NCBI RefSeq assembly: GCF_003545715.1
Contig: NZ_QVNU01000001.1
Span: 124,001 to 188,000, forward strand
Direction: 5' to 3'
Source: Taibaiella koreensis
Lineage (GTDB): Bacteria; Bacteroidota; Bacteroidia; Chitinophagales; Chitinophagaceae
DNA length: 64,000 nt
Positions 13,278-18,287 of the stretch are shown here, one piece after another. How positions within the stretch are numbered: position 1 is the first letter of the stretch; each line of letters begins with the position of its first letter. Under the pieces are notes generated by a model. The model saw only the letters and a program-made list of their open reading frames with translations, was not told where the DNA came from and searched no databases. The position numbers and the translations under genes were made by a program.

Positions 13278-16200
13278 ATGCGAATTACTTTACGTTCAGT
13301 GTTTACTTTATTGCTCCTGTGGAGTGCCTGGATAGCCGGAGCACAGGTAACGACCGCGGGCCTTAGCGGTTTTATTAAGGATAGTGAAAATAAGGGGCTT
13401 CCGGGTGCAGCCATCAAGGCAACCCATGTACCTTCGGGTACTACCTACGGTACCATGACCCAGGCCGATGGTAACTTTGTGATACAAGGCATGCGCCCGG
13501 GTGGTCCTTATTCTGTCGAGATCAGCTATATAGGCATGGCGCCACAAAAAGTGGAAGGTATCGAGCTTGCCCTGGGCGACAGCTATGTGCTGAACAGGGC
13601 TTTGAAAGAATCTGAAGGAGAAGAGATCAAAGAGGTGCAGATCGTAGGCAACAAAAGCGCGATCCTGAATGGCGACCGTACCGGCGCTGCAACCAATATC
13701 AATTCCCGATCTATTGCCCGCCTGCCTAACGTTAACAGGAGCCTCACCGATCTTACCCGCCTCACCCCGCAATCCAGCGGCAACATTAGCCCCGCTGGCA
13801 GCAGCGGCGGTTTTGCCGGCAGGGATGGCCGTTATAACAATATCCAGATCGACGGTGCCAATTTCAACAACGGTTTTGGTCTGAGCTCAGATCCGCTGCC
13901 CGGCGGTGGTAACCAACCCATCTCTCTGGACGCGATCGACGAGATACAAGTGAATGTGGCGCCCTACGATGTGCGCCAGAGTGGCTTTACCGGCGCCGGT
14001 ATCAATGCGGTTACCCGCAGCGGTACCAACGAGCTGAGCGGATCCGTTTATGGGTTTCTCCGGCCTAAAAGCTTTACGGGTTTAAATGTCGGCGATCAAA
14101 AGCTGGATGAAGTAACACGCGTTTCGAATAAGATCGTTGGTGCACGCCTGGGCGGTCCGATTATTAAAAACAAGCTTTTCTTCTTTGCCAATTTCGAGTA
14201 CGAAAACAGGCAGTCTGCCGGCAATACCTGGCTGGCCCAGCGCCCCGGATTGAGCTACGGCGGCAATGTGACCCGTGTAAATGCCAGCGATCTGGATGCC
14301 GTAAGCAGCTATCTAAGGTCCAATTACGGTTATGATCCCGGCGCTTACGAAGGATATGCCAACAACTATACCAATAAGAACATCAAAGCGCTGCTGCGCC
14401 TCGATTGGAACATCAGCGACAAGCATAAGCTTTCGTTACGTTACAACCAGATGAACGGTACCAACGATCAGGGTACCAACGGTAACTCCGGTCCCAATCC
14501 CCGCTCCGGCGCCAACCGTATCAGTAGTGAGTCCATCTCTTTTGAAAATGCTAACTACTCGTTTAAGAATACCGTTTATTCTTTTGCAGCCGAGCTCAAC
14601 AGTACTTTCAGCTCCCGCATCAGCAACCAATTCCTGGCCACTTACAGCCGCGTCCAGGATACCCGTGAAACGCCTGGCAGCATTTTTCCCTTCGTCGATA
14701 TATGGGAAGGCGGTAAGAATTACATGAGTTTTGGCACCGAGCTGTTCTCGTACAACAACGATGTGATCAATCACAATTTCAATTTTACCGACAACTTCAC
14801 CTATATCACAGGCCGGCATACCTTTACGGCAGGCTTAAGCTTCCAGACCATGAGCTATGCCAACAGCTACCTGCGTGAGGGTACTTCTTACTACCGTTAC
14901 AATTCCCTGGCCAAATTCCTGAGCGGCGGCGCCCCCGATGTGTTTGCCACTACCTATCCCTTTGACGGCAGCGATGGCTACGCCAAGGTTAAGTTTGGTC
15001 TTGGCGGCGCTTATATACAAGACAAGATCGCCGCCAGCGAAAGAGTAAATGTTACCATCGGTGTGCGTGCCGACCTGCCCATTTACCTGGACAATCCGCC
15101 GGCCAACCCTGTGGTCGATACCCTCGCCCTGTTGAACAAAAACGGACAACGCACCAACTATACAACCGCTTCCTGGCCCAAATCCAAGCCCCTGTTCTCT
15201 CCCAGGGTGGGTGTGAACTTTGATGTGCTGGGCGATAAGACCCTGCAGCTTAGAGGCGGTAGCGGTATCTTTACCGGCAATATCCCTTTTGTATGGCTGA
15301 CGAATATGCCTACCAACGCGGGCGTGCTTCAAAATACTTTTGAGCCCGTAGACAATGCAACCCTGGGCAAGATCACCCATCTGGAAAAAGATCCCAACTA
15401 TTGGATTGACCGTCTTCCCGAAAATTTCCCCAAAAAACCGGGTACCAGAGCCCCGGGCAGCGTAGCCCTTGTTGATCCCGATTTCAAGATGCCGCAGATA
15501 TGGCGTTCCAATGTCGGCGCCGATTATAAGCTGCCCGGCCTGCCGCTGGTGGCTACCATCGACGTGATCTACAGCAAAGACATCAATGCCGTGTACCAGT
15601 TCAATGCCAATCGTAAGGAAGCCACGCAGCAGCTCGATTATTCGGGAGACCACCGCGACTATTGGGGAAGCAGTAAAAATGCTACCTACAATTCTGCCAC
15701 CGGAACGGTAATCCCTGTGCTGAGCAATACCGGCAAAGGCTACTCCTTTACCTCTTCAATAGGCGTTACCCTCAATCCTTTCCATGGCTTTGCCGGTAGC
15801 CTGTTCTATACTTATACCAATGCCAAGGATATTTCGGGCAACCCGGGTTCTGCAGCTGGTTCTGCATGGAGCAACAACTATGCGGTTAATGATCCCAATG
15901 AGTTGCTGATGGGTTGGTCGCAATATGCCGTTCCGCATCGCATCGTAGGTACATTGTCCTATCGCGTGGAATATCTCAATCACCTGGCCACTACCTTCTC
16001 TCTGTTTTACCAGGGATCAAACCAGGGACGCTTTGCCTATACGTACAACGGTGATATCAATGCCGACGGCGTGAGCCTTGACCTGCTATACGTGCCCAAT
16101 AATTCGGCTGATCTTAATTTTATAGACATCAAAGACAGCAAGGGAAATACAACCTTCACGGCAGCGCAGCAACGGCAGGCTTACGACCAGTTTGTCGCCA

Positions 16201-16631
16201 ACAGCAAGGCGCTTTCCGACAGCAAAGGCGGTTATGTAGCGCGTAATAACGGCCTGATGCCCTGGATCAACCGCTTCGACTTCCGCTTGCTGCAGGATGT
16301 ATTTGTGTCGACCGGTAAAAACAACCGTAAGCATACCCTGCAGCTGAGTCTGGACATGATCAATGTGGGCAACCTGCTGAATAAGAAATGGGGACTGTAC
16401 AAACAGCTGAGCGGAGGCTCCGACTACAACTTCCCGCTGCTTAATGTAGTAGATGCCAATGGTAAGCCTACTTCGGACAAGGATTATATTCCCTCCAATA
16501 CGCCTTCTTTCCAGATGATCACAGTGAAGGATCAGGCAGGCAAAACGGTGCTGCCTTCCGATCCCTTCCGCAACCTGTTCTCAACGGGAAGCACCTGGGG
16601 GATGCAGCTGGGCTTAAGGTATACCTTCTAG
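13278..16631 (+). CDS. Oar-like TonB-dependent receptor with carboxypeptidase-regulatory domain
   Basis: 1117 residues. Signal peptide ending AGAQ, then a carboxypeptidase-regulatory-like beta sandwich (about 25-115: GFIKDSENKGLPGAAIKA, VEISYIGMAP), a plug domain with NVNRSLTDLTRLTPQS and GRDGRYNNIQIDGANFNN, then a long barrel. The plug wording (RSLTDLTRLTP, NVAPYDVRQSGFTGAGINAVTRSGTN) is that of the Oar/OmpA-related TonB receptors of Bacteroidota and Myxococcus, which are linked in some species to export or uptake of proteins. No SusD partner is adjacent. A terminator follows 23 bases after the stop. Confidence 0.92.
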   Translation: MRITLRSVFTLLLLWSAWIAGAQVTTAGLSGFIKDSENKGLPGAAIKATHVPSGTTYGTMTQADGNFVIQGMRPGGPYSVEISYIGMAPQKVEGIELALGDSYVLNRALKESEGEEIKEVQIVGNKSAILNGDRTGAATNINSRSIARLPNVNRSLTDLTRLTPQSSGNISPAGSSGGFAGRDGRYNNIQIDGANFNNGFGLSSDPLPGGGNQPISLDAIDEIQVNVAPYDVRQSGFTGAGINAVTRSGTNELSGSVYGFLRPKSFTGLNVGDQKLDEVTRVSNKIVGARLGGPIIKNKLFFFANFEYENRQSAGNTWLAQRPGLSYGGNVTRVNASDLDAVSSYLRSNYGYDPGAYEGYANNYTNKNIKALLRLDWNISDKHKLSLRYNQMNGTNDQGTNGNSGPNPRSGANRISSESISFENANYSFKNTVYSFAAELNSTFSSRISNQFLATYSRVQDTRETPGSIFPFVDIWEGGKNYMSFGTELFSYNNDVINHNFNFTDNFTYITGRHTFTAGLSFQTMSYANSYLREGTSYYRYNSLAKFLSGGAPDVFATTYPFDGSDGYAKVKFGLGGAYIQDKIAASERVNVTIGVRADLPIYLDNPPANPVVDTLALLNKNGQRTNYTTASWPKSKPLFSPRVGVNFDVLGDKTLQLRGGSGIFTGNIPFVWLTNMPTNAGVLQNTFEPVDNATLGKITHLEKDPNYWIDRLPENFPKKPGTRAPGSVALVDPDFKMPQIWRSNVGADYKLPGLPLVATIDVIYSKDINAVYQFNANRKEATQQLDYSGDHRDYWGSSKNATYNSATGTVIPVLSNTGKGYSFTSSIGVTLNPFHGFAGSLFYTYTNAKDISGNPGSAAGSAWSNNYAVNDPNELLMGWSQYAVPHRIVGTLSYRVEYLNHLATTFSLFYQGSNQGRFAYTYNGDINADGVSLDLLYVPNNSADLNFIDIKDSKGNTTFTAAQQRQAYDQFVANSKALSDSKGGYVARNNGLMPWINRFDFRLLQDVFVSTGKNNRKHTLQLSLDMINVGNLLNKKWGLYKQLSGGSDYNFPLLNVVDANGKPTSDKDYIPSNTPSFQMITVKDQAGKTVLPSDPFRNLFSTGSTWGMQLGLRYTF

Positions 16632-16739: not shown

Positions 16740-16946
16740 TCAGGCGCAGCCGCTGGTAGGGCAATTTTGCGGCCCGGTAGGGCAGTTGCCGCATACGGTC
16801 ACAGGATTCCGGGTGGGGCAGGGCGAGCAAACGGAAATGCCTGCGGTGGCGCCGCCGGCTACCTGCTTTGTTTCAGGCATGTCCAGGGCAGTGATCGCAT
16901 TCTTGTTCAGGTCCAGCTTTTTAAGCAGCATTTGTTTCTTTTTCAT
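16740..16946 (-). CDS. Lanthipeptide-type RiPP precursor with GG leader (orphan)
   Basis: 68 residues. The N-terminal part MKKKQMLLKKLDLNKNAI, then ALDMPETKQVAGG, is the Bacteroidota natural-product-precursor leader (class I lanthipeptide type) that ends in a double glycine for cleavage by a C39-peptidase transporter. The predicted core after GG (residues 32-68) is short and rich in modifiable residues: six Cys, three Ser/Thr-Pro or Cys-Pro patterns and several Thr, with the recurring block N/x-C-P-T. That composition fits thioether or disulfide crosslinking. No LanB, LanC, radical-SAM enzyme, C39 protease or dedicated transporter is encoded in the window, so maturation must occur in trans or the gene is a remnant. 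A -7 box lies at 17051-17058. Alternatives (metallothionein-like peptide) fit the leader poorly. Confidence 0.75.
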   Translation of the reverse strand: MKKKQMLLKKLDLNKNAITALDMPETKQVAGGATAGISVCSPCPTRNPVTVCGNCPTGPQNCPTSGCA

Positions 16947-17050
16947 AAATTTTGGTGTTTAAAGGTTGTTCCCCTGTCTTGACCGCCATAGGGAGCTTTC
17001 AGCGTCACGCAATGTTTGGGTTGTTGCTCTTGCAAGAAGCGATTGTGGCT

Positions 17051-17058
17051 CAAATCTA
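17051..17058 (-). promoter_or_regulatory. Possible -7 box for the RiPP precursor
   Basis: Minus strand TAGATTTG, a perfect TAnnTTTG match about 105 bases upstream of the precursor start. No convincing -33 element was found, so the call is tentative. Confidence 0.35.
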
Positions 17059-17291: not shown

Positions 17292-18287
17292 CTATTCTTG
17301 CTCGCTTACTGCCTGTGTTGTTTTTTCTGCTTTTTTCTTACCCCTGTTGTCGCGGGCCATACGGGAGTACACCGATATTTTCTTGTCGAACAGGAACTGG
17401 AACAGCAATACGGTATAAGAGGTATGGTAGCCCAGGGTATTGTAGTAATGTCCGGCAAATTTGCGGATCTTGGGCAGCTTGTTCCAGGGGACAGAGGGGA
17501 AATCGTGGTGCTCGTTGTGATAGCCTACGTTCAGGTTTACCGTATTGAGTGGGCCGTAATAGCTTTTGGTCTCCTGGTCGCCATGGGTAAGAAAATGTTC
17601 CTGTACCCAACGCGCGCCTAAGGGATGCAGGCCGATGGAAAAGAAGAAACTGGCTACCAGGTAAACAGTGCCTTTGGCGCCGAAGAAATAGACTATCGCT
17701 GCCATAAACACGATCTGGATGATCCAGTTCACTACGGTCCAGGCGTCAAATATTTTGATCTCTTTGGTCAGGCGCAATGGGCGCAGGGCCTGGAATACCG
17801 GATAAAAAAGCAGCCACAGCGCTTTGCCTACCGGCGCATTGTTGATCAGTTTGGCCTCCCAGCGGAAAGGCATATCGGCGTCTACTGCTTCCACACCCTG
17901 GAACGAATGGTGCTTCAGGTGATATTTGGTGAACGAGATAGAGCTTGGAAATACCTGCGGCAGGTTAGCGATAAGGCTTGATATTGTATTCAGCGTGCGG
18001 TTCTTGAATAGCAGGTTGTGGGAGCATTCGTGCACGCATACATAAAGCGTGTGGCAGGCAAACGCGCCCACCAGGTAAGCTACTACGAAAATGGCCCACC
18101 AGGGCATGTCTTTGGTAAAATAGGAAAGGACTACCTGTATACCCACACATAGCAAAATGACCAGGAGCGTGTAGGGGTTCCTGCCGATAAGGTTCCTGAT
18201 CTCGGGATGTTTCTGGATGATCTCCTTGGTACGTGCTTTATGCGGCTCGGGGTTGTCCGACCAGCGAAAAGAAGTTAATTTTGCCAT
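17292..18287 (-). CDS. Sphingolipid delta4-desaturase-like membrane fatty-acyl desaturase
   Basis: 331 residues with three histidine boxes of the membrane di-iron desaturase superfamily: HECSH (86-90), HLKHH (123-127) and HNEHH (257-261), and four hydrophobic segments (about 40-57, 62-82, 185-202, 205-222). The last box lies in GYHNEHHDFP, and the N-terminus (FRWSDNPEPHKAR, KHPEIRNL) and C-terminus (ISVYSRM) resemble the eukaryotic dihydroceramide delta4-desaturase family (DEGS/DES1) more than bacterial acyl-lipid desaturases. I compare with family sequence from memory. Bacteroidota make dihydroceramides, so a ceramide-type substrate is plausible but unproven. The enzyme would act in the inner membrane with an electron donor not encoded nearby. 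Promoter box at 18315-18322. Confidence 0.85.
   Translation of the reverse strand: MAKLTSFRWSDNPEPHKARTKEIIQKHPEIRNLIGRNPYTLLVILLCVGIQVVLSYFTKDMPWWAIFVVAYLVGAFACHTLYVCVHECSHNLLFKNRTLNTISSLIANLPQVFPSSISFTKYHLKHHSFQGVEAVDADMPFRWEAKLINNAPVGKALWLLFYPVFQALRPLRLTKEIKIFDAWTVVNWIIQIVFMAAIVYFFGAKGTVYLVASFFFSIGLHPLGARWVQEHFLTHGDQETKSYYGPLNTVNLNVGYHNEHHDFPSVPWNKLPKIRKFAGHYYNTLGYHTSYTVLLFQFLFDKKISVYSRMARDNRGKKKAEKTTQAVSEQE

Follow-up and report, generated by a model that had tools for sequence, protein, structure and literature searches.

A solitary six-cysteine precursor gene of Taibaiella koreensis belongs to a large, dispersed family with class I lanthipeptide leaders and follows a conserved pseudoknot RNA element

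How might a peptide precursor be matured when neither LanB nor LanC is encoded near it? The question is raised by a 68-codon open reading frame (positions 16740 to 16946, minus strand) in a 64,000-nucleotide stretch of the Taibaiella koreensis genome, hereafter the window. It encodes a 32 residue leader (16851 to 16946, minus strand; MKKKQMLLKKLDLNKNAITALDMPETKQVAGG) ending in QVAGG, and a core (16743 to 16850, minus strand; ATAGISVCSPCPTRNPVTVCGNCPTGPQNCPTSGCA) with six cysteines in the spacings C-SP-C, C-GN-C, and C-PTSG-C. The peptide length, the leader end, and the cysteine spacings agree with a preliminary description of the locus, which gave no strand; the core length is 36 residues and not the 37 given there. 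Leader residues 1 to 32 score 31.9 bits against NF038153, the NCBIfam model for class I lanthipeptide leaders, whose cut-off is 22. LDLNKNAITAL exactly matches the LxLxKx5L motif of Bacteroidetes class I LanAs; many of these LanAs have a GG site and a C39 protease encoded in the same cluster (PMC7268733, Walker et al. 2020). The model proposed earlier as support, rSAM-type TIGR04149, gives 16.8 bits against a cut-off of 25, leaving NF038153 as the only model for which the leader exceeds the cut-off; there is no Nif11 match in Pfam or NCBIfam, and a Pfam profile search with the precursor returned no match.

The gene is solitary, flanked by an outer membrane receptor-like gene (13278 to 16631, plus strand) that is convergent to it, and by a desaturase-like gene (17292 to 18287, minus strand). 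An orthologue in Taibaiella helva is 81% identical and lies in the same gene order; conservation of the core in relatives, on which the earlier reading hung, is evident there, the C-terminal half being almost unchanged despite a five residue insertion near the N-terminus. Given the NF038153 leader score and this syntenic orthologue, the reading frame is not a chance ORF. The start codon, the pseudoknot described below, and a putative Bacteroidota-type -7 promoter box (TAGATTTG, consensus TAnnTTTG; 17051 to 17058, minus strand) are kept between the two species, while the rest of the intergenic region has diverged. A near-perfect palindrome (GCTCTTGCAAGAAGC, window positions 17026 to 17040) lies between the -7 box and the pseudoknot, and is poorly kept in T. 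helva.

The preliminary description called the gene an orphan, which it is not. A search for further copies of the leader in the source genome (G000; 24 contigs, 5.94 Mb) yields 129 NF038153 matches, 93 of them over the curated cut-off (counting three raised by in-frame neighbors) and one weak match being a metalloprotease; a leader HMM built in this analysis finds 131 small ORFs in stretches around the matches, with the strict leader motif in 111 and a GG end in 128. The precursors are spread over some 95 places, 68 of which are single genes, and for roughly 120 of the 131 the nearest LanB or LanC is over 15 kb away. We conclude that the genome encodes about 125 dispersed NF038153-type precursors, the window gene among them. 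The three congeners examined differ sharply: there are 79 matches in G001, 71 in G003 (T. helva), and none in G002, which lacks LanB and LanC just as it lacks the leaders, whereas G001 and G003 have all three. Any NF038153 match at all occurs in just 13 of 299 genomes of the order and, the window genome aside, these have 1 to 11 each, mostly clustered. This congener pattern and the rarity across the order indicate that the precursor expansion is lineage-specific and tied to the enzymes.

Where, then, are the enzymes? The claim that the 64 kb hold no maturation genes stands for LanB, LanC, and C39, whose profile matches all lie elsewhere, and the genome-wide search advised earlier finds two LanB-type dehydratases, four LanC-like cyclases (all LANC_like matches are proteins of about 400 to 450 residues), and two C39 domains, of which one belongs to a complete ABC exporter. 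An operon on contig C16 consists, in order, of a precursor, a LanB with both domains (1074 residues), a C39-ABC transporter (731 residues), and an HlyD protein (444 residues), without a LanC; the LanB is 89% identical to its counterpart in G003 and 56% to that in G001, and the C39-ABC 96% and 84%, respectively. The four LanCs are located elsewhere, each near precursors, with WCYG and CHG zinc-site motifs intact. Linkage of precursors to LanB and LanC is usual, yet chemically not required, and the window contains neither. The second LanB, a divergent protein of 922 residues (L028 7703 to 10471; contig C20, about 115.7 to 118.5 kb), adjoins genes for a LytTR regulator, a histidine kinase, and RteC, with no neighboring precursor, LanC, or exporter. 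We considered it as a hub enzyme and rejected it: it is about 25% identical to the others, has no adjacent C39 exporter or precursor, and lacks a close counterpart in G003.

Dispersal on this scale could reflect little more than decay. The number and scatter of the precursors, and a few stop-interrupted or truncated copies (e.g., C16:155127), would fit a family in which most members are decaying copies of one clustered precursor that recombination has scattered, and make no product, but we regard this as highly improbable. Nearly all copies are open, and their promoters, operators, and pseudoknots are conserved. Within the genome, paralogous leaders are 44% identical and cores only 28%, against 26% for shuffled cores; between species, in 51 orthologous (reciprocal best) pairs, core identity is 76% and leader identity 72%, although the pairs were picked from the core alone, which somewhat favors the former. 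That choice does not account for the contrast between residues in the orthologous cores, where 295 of 302 Cys (98%) are conserved along with Thr (85%), Pro (83%), and Ser (81%), compared with 63% of Leu and 55% of Val. Core dN/dS in the 51 pairs is low, about 0.10 (NG86) to 0.20 (YN00), and together with the conservation between species this argues that the cores are individually maintained, and not decaying.

Maintained cores might still leave the cell unmodified, with the C39-ABC transporter cutting and exporting them, disulfides stabilizing them, and the LanBs serving neighboring precursors only. A GG site and a Cys-rich core would need the C39 exporter alone, and most precursors have no linked modification enzyme; moreover, trans modification has to reckon with some 125 substrates for just one LanB operon with an exporter, with LanCs that lie outside the C16 operon, and with the existence of a second, divergent LanB. 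A test in which Cys positions were fixed and all other core residues shuffled speaks against unmodified export. Ser or Thr stands five residues before Cys in 273 of 809 cases (167.5 expected, z 9.8) and is not enriched five residues after it (z -1.8); the one-sided signal holds for the 120 unlinked precursors by themselves (z 10.3) and with one core per similarity group (z 8.0), and points in the same direction in a small set of partnerless G003 cores (z 2.3). Disulfides would not favor Ser or Thr at a fixed distance, whereas thioether rings from dehydrated upstream Ser or Thr, as far as sequence statistics can speak to them, would explain it. Ser and Thr are also conserved far above Val or Leu, the leader has a LanB-type motif, and G002 lost LanB and LanC together with the leaders. 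We consequently think unmodified export unlikely, if less so than decay. We wish to stress that the -5 signal belongs to the family as a whole, and is not proof for the window gene: the window core has three pairs in the favored S/T-x4-C spacing (S6-C11, T18-C23, and T25-C30), no Ser or Thr lies five residues upstream of its other three cysteines, and crosslinking of this particular core is presumed from its sequence.

We hold it to be quite probable that the window gene specifies a class I lanthipeptide precursor, one member of a family that is dispersed over the genome and modified in trans. The earlier proposal that the peptide is an unlinked substrate, modified by a remote system, is thus supported, since LanB, LanC, and C39-ABC are all encoded elsewhere, and since the leader, the core conservation, and the S/T-x4-C signature in unlinked precursors agree with it. 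In such a pathway a shared LanB dehydratase, for which the 1074 residue enzyme on C16 is the likeliest candidate, would be recruited by the constant leader (LxLxKx5L...GG); one of the four stand-alone LanC cyclases would act with it in trans, the two linking Ser or Thr to Cys with a preference for S/T-x4-C; cleavage after GG would fall to the C39 domain of the transporter beside the C16 LanB; and the C39-ABC with its HlyD partner would export a polycyclic core, which might serve in antagonism or signaling. Expression would be set by a pseudoknot in the 5' UTR, as for the window gene, or by a CTGCA-n-TGCAG operator over the promoter.

The pseudoknot is an H-type RNA element (16966 to 17007, minus strand; with flanks, CGCUGAAAGCUCCCUAUGGCGGUCAAGACAGGGGAA) located 19 nucleotides before the ATG of the window gene, where it is recovered by models R1 (E 7e-8) and R2 (E 2e-8) and is kept in T. 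helva. We found 31 such elements in three genomes, each 17 to 31 nucleotides before a precursor start; the descriptor search that returned them also gave about 60 chance matches with no precursor ATG, and a spurious row (L154) was left out of the alignment. Stem P1 (YGCY/RGYR) is crossed by stem P2 (CCCC/GGGG), and unpaired GAA and GACA are conserved between the covarying stems. In an alignment of 44 sequences, whose first 31 rows were chosen partly on pairing and to which twelve genus members were added by a model without P2 pairing, 91.8% of cells pair, compared with 38 to 50% in slid registers, and there are 61 double changes versus 19 in shuffles. A model without P1 pairing collected 15 elements in other genera, 14 of which were new, and their P1 cells nevertheless pair in 100% of cases, with seven double changes. 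Weak R1 and R2 matches in coding sequence (e.g., G000:C10:839415 and C18:427205; L200 to L205 and L252 to L255) were treated as chance. We were unable to match the pseudoknot to Rfam 15, even at permissive thresholds, either in the window or among the related loci that we scanned, and consider it uncatalogued, its newness being judged against Rfam 15 alone.

Over 61 relatives, the three expanded genomes have 21, 15, and 13 pseudoknot matches, and G002 has none. The 21 matches in the window's genome comprise 15 before lanthipeptide precursors, four before another GG-leader family, and two that are chance-like. Among 398 Chitinophagales genomes the element occurs in 18, with one or two copies each outside the genus, and the strong matches there are mostly upstream of short peptides: some with lanthipeptide-type leaders (KKLQLVKIKIANLS, from genus g7), others with other GG leaders, and also Sec-type signal proteins. 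This prevailing position before GG-leader and secreted peptides leads us to conclude that the pseudoknot marks exported-peptide genes. The other GG-leader family preceded by it in the window's genome (G000:C23:11357 and 11718, C16:229331, and C17:533219; L226, L228, and L229) has the leader form K[FL]..L....M..V.GG, with weak similarity to lichenicidin and TIGR04149.

What does the pseudoknot sense? We put at about even chances the full proposition that one class I machinery diversifies some 125 dispersed, individually conserved peptides and that the pseudoknot is a new class of regulatory RNA, possibly a riboswitch, controlling exported-peptide genes throughout the Chitinophagaceae, all of them answering to a single common signal. 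With its conserved unpaired GAA and GACA and its covarying stems, the H-type element does recall the architecture of small riboswitches, a resemblance and nothing further. The element is also small (about 40 nucleotides), sits some 20 nucleotides upstream of the ATG, and precedes exported peptides instead of the genes of one metabolic pathway, so that we incline slightly toward a pseudoknot which is not a metabolite riboswitch, and which would instead coordinate exported-peptide genes as a protein landing site, or by controlling ribosome access or RNA stability.

Roughly one precursor in four has, in place of the pseudoknot, a CTGCA-n-TGCAG or CTGAA-n-TTCAG palindrome centered about 50 nucleotides before the ATG (e.g., L035, L036, L060, and L104 in G000). 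There are 30 such sites in G000 against 2.2 expected and 18 in G003 against 1.8, and none was seen in the G001 precursor loci examined. Standing beside a TAnnTTTG-like -7 box, the palindrome looks like the operator of a repressor or activator. The window gene lacks the palindromic operator and carries the pseudoknot instead, and our best reading is that the dispersed precursors are under at least two shared regulatory circuits. Separately, two TPP riboswitches (RF00059) occur in L031 (5610 to 5699 and 3556 to 3650, minus strand, 68.9 and 59.6 bits; G000:C10, about 624.6 to 626.7 kb), one ahead of a lanthipeptide precursor and LanC and the second ahead of a TonB-receptor-like gene, which suggests a thiamine-controlled lanthipeptide unit.

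Pinensins are a clustered two-peptide system. Made by Chitinophaga, they are class I lanthipeptides of the same bacterial family, with leaders of family NF038180 and not, as in the window, NF038153. The Bacteroidota class I lanthipeptides already described (PMC7268733; NF038153) share with the Taibaiella set the leader motif, the GG site, and the presence of LanB, LanC, and a C39 exporter in the genome, but those precursors lie within 7 genes of a LanC by design of the search, in contrast to the remoteness of nearly all Taibaiella precursors from LanB and LanC and to a LanB operon that has no LanC. Cluster-based mining would miss the Taibaiella system because its precursors are unlinked. The pseudoknot recalls both the Downstream-peptide motif (RF01704, PMC2864571), likewise a 5' UTR RNA before short peptide genes, and the SAM-II and SAM-V riboswitches (PMC6061858), which share the H-type build; it differs from them in having no Rfam 15 match and in being found, among the genomes scanned, only in Chitinophagaceae, before GG-leader or secreted peptides. 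It provides a new handle on the timing of exported-peptide production, and could serve to find more peptide genes that have no enzyme nearby.

In the open-licence literature searched, we found neither lanthipeptides from Taibaiella nor any class I system of the prochlorosin kind described. Prochlorosins and synechococsins (ProcM/SyncM; PMC10783134, PMC9872173) are similar in that one or a few promiscuous enzymes serve dozens of dispersed precursors with a constant GG leader and dissimilar cores. They differ in being cyanobacterial products of the class II enzyme LanM, with Nif11 leaders and up to 83 precursors per genome (PMC10783134), the largest set in that literature, whereas the larger Taibaiella set pairs with class I LanB/LanC in Bacteroidota and has cores well conserved between species. 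That conservation suggests that each peptide has a function of its own, making the purpose of such peptide libraries testable gene by gene, and a LanB tolerant of so many cores would serve well as an engineering enzyme. In organization, the prochlorosins are the nearest parallel to the Taibaiella set, which works in a similar way and yet is not a member of that family.
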